From contig JABHKC010000149.1 in NCBI GenBank assembly GCA_018692315.1, positions 1 through 64,000 on the forward strand: a stretch of DNA of 64,000 nt. The letters are read 5' to 3'. Shown piece after piece: positions 24,005 to 64,000 of this stretch. Origin of the DNA: Bacteroidota bacterium. Its GTDB lineage: Bacteria > Bacteroidota > Bacteroidia > Bacteroidales > JABHKC01. The position numbers and the translations under genes were made by a program. Under the pieces are notes generated by a model. The model did no database searches. It had not been told where the DNA came from and saw only the letters and a program-made list of their open reading frames with translations. The stretch's first letter is position 1, and each line of letters starts with the position of its first letter.

Positions 24005-27000
24005 TTGAATAGGATATTAAAATATAGTTTAGCAAGTGTAATTATAGTTGGTTTTTGGACCATATTGCTTGCTGGCAAATCTAGCGCAATCAATTTTTCT
24101 GAAATTTCTTTATATATTCCAGAAGATACAACAGCAACCGGCGATTCGCTTTCGACTGACACGCTCGGACCACTCCCTTTTCCTTTTGAAGACGAATCTA
24201 CATATCCGGTTGATAATGCTGAACAAAACCCAGCATTGTTTTTGAACCGTCCTTCCAATATAATTTCTACAGTAGAATATGATGATGAAGCAAATGAATA
24301 TGTTTTTTCACAAAAGATAGGAACACTAAATTATCGATACCCTTCGAGCATGACTATGGAGGAATATCAAGAATATGAACAAAGAATTGCAATTAACGAA
24401 TATTTCAGAGAAAGAGCTAAATCAGAAAGTCTGGGGCATCAATCAGGACTTTTGCCAAAACTACACATCGGAGGCGATGTTTTCGATAAAATTTTTGGTA
24501 GCAATACAATAAATATCCAGCCACAAGGATCGGCCGAATTGATTTTTGGAATAAATATCAATAAAAACGACAATCCGATGCTTCCCGAAAGGCAAAGACG
24601 AACAACCACTTTCGATTTTGATGAGAAAATACAAATGAATGTTACTGGTCAGATTGGGGACAAAATGAATATTCAAACCAATTATAATACAGAATCGACA
24701 TTCGATTTCGAAAATAAAATGAACTTAGCCTACGAAGGTAAAGAGGATGAGATAATTCAGAAAATTGAAGCAGGTGATGTAACTTTACCATTATCAGGCT
24801 CATTAATTACAGGTAGTCAAAGTTTATTTGGTTTGAAAACCGAACTTCAGTTTGGGAAACTCCGAGTAACAACAGTTTTTTCGCAGCAAAAAGGCGAAGC
24901 ATCGGTTATCGAAGTTGAAGGAGGAGCACAACTTAGCGATTTTGAAGTTTATGCCGACGAATACGAAGCAAACAAACACTTTTTCTTATCGCAATATTTT
25001 AAGGACAGGTACGATATTGCACTTTCTATACTGCCAATAATTCAATCTGCCGTAAATATCAATAAAATTGAAATTTGGGTAACAAACAAATCCGGGAACT
25101 TTCAAGAATCAAGAAATATTGTAGGTTTCCTCGATCTGGGAGAGGCAAATAGTTCCGGTGAAGGAATAAATGAAGACGGAACAAATGTTTTCAACAATAG
25201 TTTTATTTCATTAAATTCATATCAAGACTATTTTCCTGACAATGAAGTAAATGACTTGTATGAAAAAATGACAACTGACTTTTCTGATGTTAGAGATATA
25301 AACAATGTATCCACACTATTAGGCCCATTGGCTTATCAATATGATTTTACGGGTGGTCAAGACTACGAAAAAATTGAAAATGCAAGAAAATTATCTACTT
25401 CAGAATATACATTCCACCCTCAATTGGGTTATATTTCTTTAAATTCTGCACTAAATGCCGATGAAGTTTTGGCTGTTGCTTACGAATATACTGCAAGCGG
25501 ACAAATTTTTCAAGTAGGAGAATTTTCCAGCGAAGTATCGCTCGATAGTTCAAGCTCTACTCCAGCCCTATTTCTTAAACTGCTAAAAGGAACATATTTA
25601 TCTCCAACAATTTTGGTTGCTAATAAAAGGAAAATTAATCCTACTTGGGAACTTGTTATGAAAAACATTTATGCAATTGGTGCATATCAAGTAAACCAAC
25701 AAGATTTTCAACTTCATGTAATGTATCAGGATGATAAAACCGGTACAGCAGTAAATTATCTTTCCGAAGGGCAACAACCACCGAGTGGAATAAACGGAGA
25801 AATTCTACTAAACGTTCTGAATTTAGATAATCTGAACTCTAACAACGATCCTCAACCAGATGGAGTTTTCGATTTTGTAAACGGAATAACAATCAATACG
25901 TCAAATGGCAGAATAATTTTTCCGGTTAGGGAACCATTCGGGTCGCATTTGCGGAAACAAATTAATGATGATGCCATTGCAGACAAATATGTTTTTGAAG
26001 AATTATACGATTCAACACAAAGTGTAGCGCGACAAATTGCCGAAAAAAACAAATTCTATCTCGAAGGAACTTATCAGTCGGCTTCGAGCTCCGAAATTAC
26101 ACTAAATGCCTTAAATGTTCCGCAAGGTTCGGTAAAAGTAACTTCCGGAGGAATGCAACTAACAGAAGGACAGGACTATACTGTCGATTATACTATGGGT
26201 CGTGTAAAAATTATTAATGAGGGTTTGCTTCAGTCGGGAACCCCAATTAAAATTTCTCTCGAAAGCAATTCATTATTTAATATTCAGAGTAAAACATTAG
26301 TTGGGACTCATTTAGATTATAGAGTTTCAAACGATTTCAATCTCGGTGCAACAATGTTGAACTTGACTGAACGTCCACTCACATCGAAAGTAAACATTGG
26401 CGACGAACCAATCTCAAACACAATATGGGGTGTTGATGGCACATACAGAACCGATGTTCCTTTCATTACAAAAGCAATAGATTTTTTACCACTTCTCGAA
26501 ACCAAGGAAAAATCAACTGTTTCTGTAACCGGAGAATTTGCTCATCTGATTCCTGGACATTCAAAAGCACTTAGCAAAAGCGGGGTTTCATACATCGACG
26601 ATTTTGAAGGCAGCCAAACTGCAATTGACATTAGAACGTGGGCTGCATGGGGTTTAGCTAGCACTCCACAATTGCAAGACGACATGTTTCCTGAAGCAAG
26701 TCTTACCGACAATCTTGCCTATGGTTATAATCGAGCAAAATTAGGCTGGTATAATATCGATCCTTTATTTCTGCGAGACGAAGGTGTTACGCCAAATCAT
26801 ATATCAAACGACGACCGGTCAAGCCATTATGTTAGAGAAATATACGAAGAAGAGATTTTTCCGAATAAAGAAAACGCCAATGGAATTCCTACAAGTATAG
26901 CAATTTTAAACTTGGCTTATTATCCCGAAGAAAGAGGCCCATATAATTATGATGTAGAACCTAACGAATATTCTCATGGAGTTTCTGCCGATGGTAAACT

Positions 27001-30000
27001 TAATGAACCAGATACCCGCTGGGCTGGAATAATGCGAAAAATTACTACCAACGATTTTGAATCGGCAAATGTAGAATTCATCGAATTTTGGATGATGGAC
27101 CCTTTTGTTGAAAAAGCAGATTCAAATTTTGTTGGAGGAGACCTATACTTCAATCTTGGAAATGTTTCCGAAGATGTTTTAAAAGATTCGAGAAAATCAT
27201 TCGAAAACGGATTACCAACTTTCGATATTCAAACAGCCGAAGATGCAGAATTAGCCTATGTTGACACAACTAATTGGGGTAGAGTGCCATTAGTGCAATC
27301 TTTAGTGAATGCTTTCGACAACGATTTGCAAGCACGCCAGTTTCAAGATGTTGGACTCGATGGTTTAAGAGATGAGGATGAAACAGATTTTTTTGCAGAC
27401 TATATACAATCTTTGGCACAGGTAGTTGACTCAAACCAAAATTATTCGTTTTTTGAAGATCCATCGAGCGACAATTATCACTATTTCAGAGGAACCGACT
27501 ATGATAACCAAGAGGTTGGAATTCTTGATAGGTATAAAAAGTACAACGGACTGGACGGTAATTCTCCAACCGATGACCAATCTCCTGAGGATTATTTCAC
27601 TTCCGGAACTATTACTCCAGATGTAGAAGACATAAATGGCGACAATACACTTAGCGAAGCCGAAAGCTACTATCAGTATCGTATTCCAATCACACGACAA
27701 AATTTGCAATACGACAAAAAATATATTACTGATGAAATTGAACATACGGAAACTTTAAAAAACGGTCAAAAATCGAAAGTAACATGGTATCAATTCAAAA
27801 TACCAATTTACGAACCCGAGCAAGTGATAGGTTCAATTTCTGATTTTAAATCAATTCGATTTATAAGAATGTTTTTGAAAAACTTCGATCAAGATATTAT
27901 ACTACGTTTTGCAACCCTCGATTTAGTTAGAGGAGAATGGAGGAAATATAATTTATCGCTCAAAGAAGGTGGCGAAAACCTAATGCACCCTCAACCAACA
28001 GATGCAAGTTTCGACGTTTCTGCAATAAATATTGAAGAGAATGGTAGCAAAACTCCGGTAAACTATATTTTACCTCCCGGAATTGACAGAGTAATTGATC
28101 CAACAAATCCGCAATTGCGTCAATTGAATGAGCAATCAATTGTATTGAAAGTTTTAGACCTTGCCGATGGCGATGCAAGAGCAGCCTATAAAAATGTTAC
28201 AATGGATGTTCGTCAGTATAAACGCCTACAACTTGAAGTACATGCCGAAGAAATTAATAATTATCCATTGAATGATAAGGAATTATATGTTTTTATTCGT
28301 TTAGGGTCTGACTACAAACAAAATTATTACGAATACGAAGTTCCTTTAGTTCTGACACCTCCAGGAAATTACGATAATGATGAATACGAAGACAGGCTTA
28401 TAGTTTGGCCTGACGAAAACAGAATAGATTTGCGTTTTTCACTTTTTCAGGATGTAAAACAAGAACGGAACGATAAAATGCGAGAATCGAATTCAACGGT
28501 TCAACTCACAACTCCTTATTACATTATGGATGGCGAAAATAAGGTAACTGTAACAGGAAATCCTAATTTAAGCAATGTAAGAACAATTATGCTCGGTATT
28601 CGAAATCCGAACGATGCTGACAACGACGATCCACATTCCGGAGAAATTTGGCTTAATGAACTTCGCCTATCAGAATTCGACGAAACAGGTGGCTGGGCAG
28701 CAAATGCAAGAGTTATGACTAAACTTGCCGATCTTGGTACAGTTACAGTAGCTGGTAGCACAAGTAAACCCGGCTTCGGAAGTATTGAAAAGAAAGTAAG
28801 CGAACGCCAAAAAGAAGAGATGCTTCAATATGATATTTCTTCAAATTTAGAACTTGGGAAATTTTTCCCTCAAAAAGCAGGAATACGAATTCCGGTATAT
28901 CTTGGATTATCAGAAAGTGTAACAAATCCTCAATATAATCCATTAGACCCGGATATTCCACTTTCAGCTGCAATAAATAATGCAAAAACACAAGAGGAAA
29001 GGGACTCAATAAAACATTATTCTCAAGACTATACTAAAAGAAAAAGTGTAAACTTTACAAATGTGAAGGTTACTAAAGGAGGACAATCAAAACCAAAAGT
29101 CTATGATTTATCCAATTGGTCGTTAACCTATTCCTACAACGAACTTTTCTCAAGAAATGTAAATACAGAATTTAGCTTAAGAAAAGATTATCATGGTGCA
29201 ATTTCATATAATTACAATACGCGACCGAAAAATATTCAACCATTTAAAAAGTCAAAATCAAAATTCCTGAAGTCCTCTGCAATGAGGTTAATCAAAGATT
29301 TCAATTTCTATTATTTACCTCAACAAATGTCGTTCAGAACAAATTTGGACAGAATGTATCAGGAAACAAAACTTCGAAACATCAATAGCCCAAATATCAT
29401 AATTCCTACAACATTTCAAAAAGATTTTTCATGGAACAGAATGTACGACCTAAAATATGACCTTTCAAGAACTTTCAAACTCGATTTTTCAGCAACAAAT
29501 ATTGCAAGGATAGACGAACCGGAAGGAAAGATTGACAAAGATGATGATGATTATGAATGGAAAAGAGACTCAATTGTTCAGAATTTATACGATTTTGGAC
29601 GAACAACAAATTACCGACATTCGATAAATGCAAACTGGAATGTTCCAATCAATAAAATACCAATTTTAAATTTTATGTCGGCAAATGCACGCTACAATGC
29701 TACCTACGATTGGACAACCGGCCCAATTATGCCAGACTCATTGAATATCGATTTAGGGAATACTATAAAGAATTCGAATACTTTGCAAGTTACACCACAA
29801 ATAAATTTTCAGAATTTATATAATAAGGTTAAGTATTTGAAAGAGATAAATAAAAAATATAGAAAAGGTAAAAGTAGGAATAACAAAACCACAAAACAAA
29901 AAGAAAAGGAAACAGAATTAGTAGTTTATGAAAAGAAAAACGTAACATTCAAATCTAATGTTGCAAAGTCTTTCACTCACAATCTTCAAACAGAAGATGT

Positions 30001-61369: not shown

Positions 61370-64000
61370 ATGAAAAAATTGACGTTAAAAAAACTTTTGT
61401 TGTTGATATTTGTTATATCTTCAACTACTGCGATATTTGCGCAACCAAATTGGAACCTAAGTTTAGTAACCGGAAGCAACCACACAATATTAGTTCAACC
61501 TGGAACAATAACTATAAATGGATCGGCAATTTCAGTTGGAGATTATATTGGAGTCTTTTTCGATAGTACTGCTGGGACTTTAGCATGTGGTGGTTTTCAT
61601 ATTTGGGATGGCAATAGTAATGCAATCACTGCCTGGGGTGCTGATGCAGGTATGGATGGTTTTGCTGCTAATGAAGCTTTTAAGTGGAAAATTTGGCAAG
61701 CCTCGACAGGCGCTACTTTTGATGCAACTGCTACTTACATGACTGTTGGTATGCCAAATCAAGGAAATTTTGTTTCAAACGGAATAAGCGGATTAGCGGA
61801 TTTATCAGCAACCGGTTCAATTCCACTTTCAATTTCACTTTCGGGCACCGATGTTGCATGTTTTGGTGATGCCACCGGAGCAGTAGATCTTACTGTTAGC
61901 GGCGGGGATACTCCATATCTTTACATTTGGTCAAATTCTACTTTTTTAGAAGATTTGACAAACTTAGTAGCTGGAACCTATACTGTAACTGTATTTGACA
62001 ATAGCTCTACTTCAGCTACTGAATCAATAATAATATCTCAACCTACAGCAGCTATCACTATTAGTAATCCAGTAGTTACAGATGTTACATTTTATGGAGG
62101 AAGCGATGGCTCAATATCCCTTTTAGCAATGGGAGGAACAACACCATTCACCTTCTTGTGGTCGAATGGTAGCACTCTTTTAAATCAAACAAATTTAGTT
62201 GCCGGAACTTATGATTTGACTATTACAGATGCTAATGGATGTACCGAGTTTGGGAATTATGTTGTGGACCAACCTGTAGCACCGCCGCAACTTATAGTAA
62301 ATTATTTAAGTAGTGATGTTAGCTGTTTTGGTGGTTCAGACGGAAGTATAGATTTGACTGTCAGTGGAGGAACTACTCCATATTGTTTCGATTGGTCAAA
62401 TGGTTTAGCAATCGAAGATATTACTGGCTTAATTGCAGGTACATATACAGTTACTGTAACTGATAATTGTACTTCACAACCATTTTCTTGGACATACATT
62501 GTAACAAGTGGAAACCATACGATTTTATTGCAACCAGGAACAATAACCATAAACAGTCAAGTTCTGGCAGTAGGAGATTATGTTGGAGTTTTTTATGATC
62601 AAGGCGGAACTTTAGCCTGTGGTGGTTATGCACCTTGGACAGGAAGCAATACAGCAGTTACTGCATGGGGATCCGAAGCTGGTTTAGATAATGGCTTCCA
62701 GGCAAATGAAGCTTTTGTTTGGAAAGTATGGCAGGCTTCATCTGGTCAGGTAGTAGATATGACTCCAACATATCAAACTCTGGGAATGCCAAATCAAGGC
62801 AATTTTGCGACAAATGGTATTAGCGGTATAGCATCACTTTCGGGAACATCAACCGGTGGCGGTACTGGAACTACAGAAATTGTAACAATAACAATTATTG
62901 AACCAGCCGAAATAATACAAACTGATGATGTTTCAATTTGTGATGGAGATTCATATTATGCAGGTGGAGCTCTGCAAACTACAAGTGGAAGCTATACAGA
63001 TGTTTATACAGCTACAAACGGTTGCGATAGTACGGTAAACACAAATTTGACTGTCAACCAAATATATAATGAAACAGTGAATGTTGCAATTTGCGATGGC
63101 GAAAGCTTTTTTGCAGGTGGAGCTAATCAAACTATAGCTGGTACATATACTGATGTTTTAACTTCTATTGAAGGTTGCGACAGTACAATAATTACCAATT
63201 TAACTGTAAATCCAGTCTATACTGAGACAATAAATATGACTATTTGCGATGGTGAAAGCTATTTTGCAGGTGGAGCAAATCAAACTGTTGCAGGCGTTTA
63301 TACAGATGTTTATACTACTATAAATGGTTGCGATAGTACAATTATTACAAATTTGACTGTAAATCCTGTTTATGCAATAATGAAATATATAGAAATTTGT
63401 GACAATGAAACTTATTATGCAGGTGGAGCATTCCAATCTACTACTGGAGTTTATGTTGACAATTATACAACTATTAATGGATGCGACAGTATTGTAACTA
63501 CAAATTTAACAGTCTATCCAACTTACTCATTGTCGATTGATACTACAATTTGTGGAAATGAAACTTATTTTGCCGGCGGTGCAAACCAGAATACAACTGG
63601 TTTTTACATGGATGTTTTAACAAGTATTAATGGTTGTGATAGTATAGTTTCAACAAATTTAACTGTAAATCCTGTTTACTCGCAAACATTTGATATATCA
63701 ATTTGTGATGGAGATTTCTATTTTGCAGGCGGTGCAGAGCAAACTACTAGTGGTACTTATACAGACTATCTATTTACTGGAGATGGTTGCGATAGTACTG
63801 TTATTACAAACTTAACAGTAAATTCGGTATATTCTGTAACATTTGATATTTCTATTTGCGACGGAGAAAGTTATTATGCAGGCGGAGCAAATCAAACTAT
63901 GAGTGGGACATATACTGATAACTTATTGACAGTAAATGGCTGTGATAGTACTGTAATCACAAATCTTACAGTAAATCCGGTTTACACACAAACCTTTGAT
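61370..64000 (+). CDS. giant surface protein with SprB-type repeats, 5-prime part (877 codons, runs off the window)
   Basis: Open from ATG 61370 to the last base with no stop. Signal peptide (about 1-24, ending IFAQP). Then domain A1 (about 28-145), three SprB-like repeats (about 150-372; SCFGGSDGSIDLTVSGGTTP is typical), a second copy A2 (about 374-490) of domain A1, and seven tandem 51-residue repeats from about 523 onward. SprB proteins are T9SS-exported adhesins used for gliding or attachment (family knowledge). Size and C-terminal anchor lie beyond the window. It follows the ABC gene by 288 bp with no visible terminator. Confidence 0.88.
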   Translation, partial: MKKLTLKKLLLLIFVISSTTAIFAQPNWNLSLVTGSNHTILVQPGTITINGSAISVGDYIGVFFDSTAGTLACGGFHIWDGNSNAITAWGADAGMDGFAANEAFKWKIWQASTGATFDATATYMTVGMPNQGNFVSNGISGLADLSATGSIPLSISLSGTDVACFGDATGAVDLTVSGGDTPYLYIWSNSTFLEDLTNLVAGTYTVTVFDNSSTSATESIIISQPTAAITISNPVVTDVTFYGGSDGSISLLAMGGTTPFTFLWSNGSTLLNQTNLVAGTYDLTITDANGCTEFGNYVVDQPVAPPQLIVNYLSSDVSCFGGSDGSIDLTVSGGTTPYCFDWSNGLAIEDITGLIAGTYTVTVTDNCTSQPFSWTYIVTSGNHTILLQPGTITINSQVLAVGDYVGVFYDQGGTLACGGYAPWTGSNTAVTAWGSEAGLDNGFQANEAFVWKVWQASSGQVVDMTPTYQTLGMPNQGNFATNGISGIASLSGTSTGGGTGTTEIVTITIIEPAEIIQTDDVSICDGDSYYAGGALQTTSGSYTDVYTATNGCDSTVNTNLTVNQIYNETVNVAICDGESFFAGGANQTIAGTYTDVLTSIEGCDSTIITNLTVNPVYTETINMTICDGESYFAGGANQTVAGVYTDVYTTINGCDSTIITNLTVNPVYAIMKYIEICDNETYYAGGAFQSTTGVYVDNYTTINGCDSIVTTNLTVYPTYSLSIDTTICGNETYFAGGANQNTTGFYMDVLTSINGCDSIVSTNLTVNPVYSQTFDISICDGDFYFAGGAEQTTSGTYTDYLFTGDGCDSTVITNLTVNSVYSVTFDISICDGESYYAGGANQTMSGTYTDNLLTVNGCDSTVITNLTVNPVYTQTFD
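61451..61800 (+). repeat. domain A1, first copy of a duplicated ~115-aa module
   Basis: Key residues: NHTILVQPGTITING, VGDYIGVFFD, TLACGGF, AITAWGADAG, NEAFKWKIWQAS and GMPNQGNFVSNGISG. The same order recurs in A2 (62489-62845), with a start offset of 1038 bp, an exact multiple of three. Confidence 0.85.
61846..62455 (+). repeat. three SprB-type repeats
   Basis: Units of about 76-79 residues, starting near 61846, 62071 and 62308. Each has a (C/Y)FGGSDG-like start (CFGDATG, FYGGSDG, CFGGSDG), a TPY/TPF-x-x-x-WSN core and an end of the form AGTYxxTxxD. The middle unit lacks the first Cys. Confidence 0.85.
62489..62845 (+). repeat. domain A2, second copy of the duplicated module
   Basis: NHTILLQPGTITINS, VGDYVGVFYD, TLACGGYAPW, AVTAWGSEAG, NEAFVWKVWQAS and GMPNQGNFATNGISG align with A1 without large gaps. 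It is followed by a Gly/Thr linker (STGGGTGTT). Confidence 0.85.
62936..64000 (+). repeat. seven exact-length 153-bp tandem coding repeats
   Basis: The unit start (codon ATT of IC) falls at 62936, 63089, 63242, 63395, 63548, 63701 and 63854, each exactly 153 bp apart. The consensus is ICDGExYxAGGAxQT, then G-x-YTD, then NGCDSTxxTNLTVNPVY. Each unit has two Cys (IC and GC) that could form a disulfide. The last unit is cut by the window end. Confidence 0.95.

Follow-up and report, generated by a model that had tools for sequence, protein, structure and literature searches.

Why does a repeat unit whose copies have clearly diverged keep a period of exactly 51 residues? This question is raised by a gene at the end of the 64,000-base stretch of DNA analysed here (the window), which covers positions 1 to 64,000 of the 84,162-base contig C149 in a draft genome of 4.98 Mb. 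An earlier note, made from the letters of the window, read this period as selection for a fixed stalk length per unit in a giant surface protein and expected one disulfide within each unit.

After the second copy of the GSNHTIL domain (Table 1), the protein consists of 11 units of 51 residues, about 14 Ig-like repeats of 68–82 residues and a Por_Secre_tail (PF18962, residues 2200–2275, E 5e-14 in Pfam). With this tail and a signal peptide recognised by eye, it has the features of a type IX cargo with a type A tail, and the gene of a SprA/Sov translocon is carried by its own contig. SprA/Sov is the export machinery for proteins with type IX tails. The signal peptide, the tail and the presence of SprA in the genome support the view that the array is part of a secreted surface stalk, as had been proposed.

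Table 1. Coordinates, in the window, of the giant protein gene, its domains and the translocon gene.
Feature	Position	Strand	Remarks
SprA/Sov type IX translocon gene region	24260..28972	+	PF14349, E 8.9e-183
Giant secreted protein, residues 1-877 of 2276	61370..64000	+	gene continues beyond the window to contig base 68197
Putative signal peptide, residues 1-24	61370..61441	+	hydrophobic leader ending AIFA/Q; presumed cleavage before Gln25
GSNHTIL domain, copy 1	61442..61810	+	~120 aa; no Pfam family
Three SprB-type repeats	61841..62479	+	approximate bounds; PF13573, E 4.7e-32
GSNHTIL domain, copy 2	62486..62845	+	
51-aa unit 1	62918..63070	+	Cys8 codon 62939, Cys36 codon 63023; +153 for each later unit
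51-aa unit 2	63071..63223	+	
51-aa unit 3	63224..63376	+	modelled (AF2)
51-aa unit 4	63377..63529	+	modelled (AF2)
51-aa unit 5	63530..63682	+	modelled (AF2)
51-aa unit 6	63683..63835	+	modelled (AF2)
51-aa unit 7	63836..63988	+	
51-aa unit 8, first 4 residues	63989..64000	+	units 8-11 at contig 63989-64600, mostly outside the window

The GSNHTIL domain, which flanks the SprB repeats, is a lineage-specific and massively expanded surface domain. It was found at 114 places in its own genome (E<=1e-3), in 7 of 99 genomes of the same order, with three other genomes holding 20 to 45 or more copies, and in 2 of 198 genomes sampled from the class, counting the one analysed here. Its AF2 model, built from two sequences only, has a pLDDT of 43.

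The seven complete units of the window follow one another at exactly 153 bp without any indel, as the earlier note had stated; its phase was right, although 62936, the start that it gave, falls on the conserved Ile-Cys of unit 1, which itself begins at 62918. Units 8–11 keep this phase beyond the window, so that the array totals 11 units and ends at residue 1077, and no stop occurs at the edge of the window, the protein running on to residue 2276. Each of the seven units scores 88–101 bits against the unit profile, far above chance. Both cysteines and the AGGA, GCDS and TNLTV motifs are found in all seven, but the NPVY that had been added to the kept positions is not, since NQIY, YPTY and NSVY also occur; beyond the window, AGGA is itself altered to VAGA in unit 9 and AAGA in unit 10. 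Adjacent units of the window are 64–79% identical in DNA and 57–80% in protein, and the DNA identity among all units ranges from 58 to 82% (mean 69%). Between units, pS is 0.58 and pN 0.23 (pN/pS 0.40, dN/dS roughly 0.25). These values point to units old enough to have diverged and subject to purifying selection, and favour the claim that the duplications are not very recent.

The unit is a genuine, widespread and uncharacterised repeat of Bacteroidota. Searches of Pfam and NCBIfam revealed no model for it: the units of the window have no Pfam family, and the hits among 90 relatives were scattered ones due to chance (NuoB, TACI). A scan of 84,980 species genomes revealed 393 places encoding a relative, 80 of which were kept, nearly all of them recorded under names of Bacteroidota. 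Furthermore, a four-unit profile matches 270 of the 395 sampled genomes of the class, a figure whose weak matches may include longer Ig-like repeats. One relative, BFVD A0A8D9FS04 (34% identity to the array model, E 7e-18), is labelled as coming from an uncultured marine phage, which may reflect either carriage by a phage or a mislabelled contig. The genome analysed here encodes the unit in five other genes (contigs C157, C211, C133, C125 and C48), most of which are broken by contig ends. The first four of these contigs end inside or near the arrays, so that the repeats probably break the assembly and more arrays than those counted may exist.

Is the phase then the footprint of a fairly recent tandem duplication, without any constraint on length? 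Some arrays are clearly young (the units of C157 are 85% identical in DNA), and the exactness of the spacing rises with the identity of the neighbours. However, the divergence of the window units given above runs against this explanation, as does the spacing in relatives. Indeed, of 1467 distances measured from one Cys36 to the next, 1097 are of 51 residues; out of 170 arrays, 139 have 51 as their modal spacing and 75 have no other; and this spacing is retained in 70% of neighbours sharing less than 40% identity. The phase is therefore a trait of the family rather than a mere mark of duplication, and a duplication footprint is a very unlikely explanation. By the same token, the length constraint put forward in the earlier note stands, and it is not confined to this gene, the spacing being common among relatives. 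The constraint is not evenly distributed along the repeat. From Cys36 of one unit to Cys8 of the next, linker included, 23 residues are found in 91.5% of cases, and the 28 residues that separate Cys8 from Cys36 within a unit are the mode, with 77%. It is the junction segment whose length varies least.

Other features of spacing were also noted. An apparent preference for odd values (47, 49, 51, 53) disappeared once each array was counted once, a spacing of 52 being found in 56 arrays. In three arrays from Saprospiraceae (L078, L016 and L018), spacing blocks of 51,51,51,51,49,49,49 recur, and the seven-unit super-units look duplicated. Two other arrays (L084 and L024) harbour a 41-residue variant ('TSCDPAAVGVFT...GCDS') with a cysteine at a different place; this variant was excluded from the cysteine tests described below.

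The AF2 model of four units of the window, obtained from an alignment of 90 sequences, has a pLDDT of 92.6 and displays five β-strands in every unit (residues 2–8, 13–15, 18–20, 24–31 and 37–47); its pTM is only 0.59, so that the geometry between units is uncertain in it. A PDB sequence search with single units or a four-unit profile gave nothing credible. Among solved folds, the array is best matched by a grappling-hook protein from Aureispira sp. CCB-QB1, GhpA (PDB 9FLP and related entries), in its neck, with an E value of 1.2e-9 and a TM score of 0.49, four units covering about four domains. Parallel first and last strands and termini at opposite ends, which characterise the Ig-like superfamily, were found in the unit from residue couplings, AF2 strands and matches to Ig folds. 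The unit also aligns with the Ig-like repeats that follow it in the same protein (hhalign probability 94.5, E 7.5e-8, 46 columns), with both cysteine columns in register and a stretch including 'YLWSNG' absent from the unit. On this one profile comparison, it is probably a shortened relative of these repeats. The Ig-like repeats are in turn related to SprB repeats (hhalign probability 98.5). The direct profile comparison of the unit with SprB repeats was not significant, and SprB (PF13573) has no Pfam match in the array, its matches lying N-terminal to it only. The earlier statement that the unit is not the SprB repeat is thus right by Pfam, but needs qualification, as the unit is probably kin of Ig-like repeats that are themselves related to SprB.

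The position of the two cysteines in this fold comes from direct-coupling analysis of 867 two-unit stretches (effective number 633). A series of couplings that share an offset of 39 (2-41, 3-42, 4-43 and 7-46) indicates that the first and last strands are parallel. In this arrangement Cys8 lies where the chain leaves the unit and Cys36 where it enters, with about 11 residues between them along the strands, which makes a bond joining the two implausible. Of 4800 ranked pairs, Cys8 with Cys36 of the following unit (8-36') is 59th whereas 8-36 within the unit is 4072nd. The strongest coupling between units, 50-32', sets the linker against the loop preceding Cys36 of the next unit. Couplings between equal motifs of adjacent units (36-37' and the like) were set aside as an artefact of the similarity of neighbours.

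Cysteine losses lead to the same partner. A cysteine-masked profile was used to collect about 1,770 units, in which Cys8 and Cys36 were called; they form about 1,480 neighbouring pairs. Where a unit has lost Cys8, the next one tends to have lost Cys36 (table [[1476,2],[2,5]], p=7e-12), and this association persists after redundancy filtering at 90% (p=1.9e-7) or 60% (p=7.4e-5), the five double losses representing about three independent lineages (L030=L023=L063, L074 and L206). No association was found in the opposite direction, between Cys36 of a unit and Cys8 of the next (p=1), and in a scan of lags only +1 is significant (p=2e-11), -2, -1, 0 and +2 being not. Three of the four mismatched junctions have a stand-in cysteine in the linker at that junction, compared with 14 of 1176 matched junctions (p=1e-5). 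In some of these 14 junctions the linker cysteine counted is in fact the Cys8 of a length variant, and some hold two linker cysteines, by which the cysteine count stays even. One mismatch (L063) remains without explanation by a rule of bonding between neighbours. Besides, some units of two arrays (L043 and L069) have a third cysteine at position 15 ('CGGA'), and one unit from the genome analysed here (L013 unit 3) has Cys15 and lacks Cys8.

These data bear directly on the idea of self-contained units, each a small beta-sandwich with a Cys8-Cys36 disulfide of its own to close it, the phase being simply an ordinary domain length. Disulfides within Ig domains are common, and 740 of 769 full units do contain two cysteines. 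However, losses within the same unit are not associated (27 units lack Cys8 only, 13 lack Cys36 only and 1 lacks both; p=0.20), they depend on where the unit stands in the array and on its neighbour, and the couplings set the two positions far apart, one at either end of the parallel strands. Covariation strongly disfavours a bond inside the unit, which we regard as highly improbable; the single disulfide per unit expected initially has to give way to bonds between units, to which covariation, position effects and couplings all point.

The position effects follow from a simple expectation: if neighbours are stapled, the last unit of an array needs no Cys8 and the first no Cys36. In the arrays of 51-residue units, Cys8 is absent from 14 of 220 last units and from 4 of 1256 internal ones, and Cys36 from none of the last units. 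The difference between last and internal units for Cys8 has a p value of 6e-6, and that between first and internal units for Cys36 one of 0.006. The longer Ig-like repeats display the same pattern, with Cys8 absent from 13 of 84 last versus 6 of 202 internal repeats (p=3e-4) and Cys36 absent from 11 of 78 first versus 0 of 202 internal repeats (p=5e-7). In the protein encoded in the window, Cys8 is missing from the first Ig-like repeat, Cys36 from the second and Cys8 from the last; with these gaps, the cysteines between unit 1 and the final Ig-like repeat can be joined by 23 staples without any misfit. The chains of the paralogues on C157, C211 and C125 begin or end in the same cysteine pattern. 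Six cysteines on the N-terminal side of the window protein (73, 319, 339, 367, 417 and 552) are outside this scheme.

Covariation tests contact and not chemistry, and would look no different if the junction were a metal site. Cys8 of one unit and Cys36 of the next might thus meet in space as metal ligands or as reduced thiols. Asp37 and Ser38, which adjoin Cys36, are nearly invariant, and no match to the DsbA, DsbB and VKOR families was found in the genome analysed here. However, no further conserved Cys or His is available to complete a metal site, and a single stand-in cysteine replaces one partner. The absence of VKOR says little, since this family occurs in just 28 of 395 Bacteroidia genomes. 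DSBA matches elsewhere in Bacteroidia were judged uninformative as evidence of an oxidase, many of them having the size of what we take to be cytosolic FrnE-like members. For envelope proteins of Bacteroidota, disulfides have been described in the gliding and type IX components of Flavobacterium, in a paper where no oxidase term was found (PMC12635249). A metal or thiol junction is therefore considered unlikely, and the cysteine pairs would be oxidised to disulfides.

It is thus probable that the array is a type IX-secreted stalk of mini Ig-like units in which disulfides joining Cys8 of each unit to Cys36 of the next keep the 51-residue period. Each unit would be a five-stranded mini Ig-like domain with strands 2–8 and 37–47 side by side and in the same direction, the chain entering at one end and leaving at the other, and each disulfide would act as a staple over the junction, a rule that would extend into the longer Ig-like repeats after the array. 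As such a staple requires a fixed register across the junction, the period would be kept. Taken together, covariation, position effects and couplings indicate that the length constraint proposed in the earlier note is better read as one on junction geometry than on stalk length. In this arrangement, a covalent path would run from strand 1 of a unit through the disulfide to the last strand of the next unit and then to the unit after it, two such rails interlacing along the array. Topology computation on the stapled graph gives a maximum contour of 4.4 nm per unit, versus 18.4 nm unstapled, and two edge-disjoint covalent paths, none of 380 single backbone cuts severing the array. As the folded rise would be near 4 nm, judging from strand length, this topology suggests that the stalk is close to inextensible; it would be a stiff structure displaying the N-terminal domains.

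Stalks of Ig-like repeats are a known kind of structure, to which junction disulfides and their mechanical consequence are an unusual addition. GhpA is also a Bacteroidota surface protein with long strings of Ig-like domains. Its sequence is matched by the Ig-like repeats of the window protein (E 5e-57) but not detectably by the 51-residue unit; GhpA has domains of about 83 aa in a chain of 5898 aa and forms a heptamer (PMC13319060). The SprB repeats that precede the array likewise have one cysteine near their start and one before the last strand, but are longer (about 75 aa). The CHU-type Ig-like repeats (near PF19081, Ig_7), which align with the unit as described above, differ from it by about 18 extra residues, including 'YLWSNG'. 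Other adhesin stalks are stiffened by the Ca2+ linkers of RTX adhesins (PMC7493085) or by intramolecular isopeptide bonds (PMC12617251). The proposed purpose is the same, i.e. a long stalk kept stiff and resistant to force, but these systems use calcium linkers or bonds within domains, whereas here a disulfide would link each domain to the next. The open-licence literature searched yielded no mention of interdomain disulfides for these repeats.

The usual picture of a repeat stalk is that of beads on a string, each independent of the others. It is conceivable, though we rate it at somewhat under even chances, that many Bacteroidota stalks (those of 51-residue units, SprB repeats, CHU-type Ig repeats and possibly the grappling hook) are disulfide ladders, inextensible and proof against any single cut. 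The staple rule predicts the pairing of cysteines in many unannotated proteins from sequence alone. If it is true, the stiffness of the stalk, its reach, its resistance to proteases and its fixed repeat length would share one cause, and the question would become how these bacteria, few of which have a recognised disulfide oxidase, form such a number of bonds before their proteins leave, or while they are leaving, by the type IX route.
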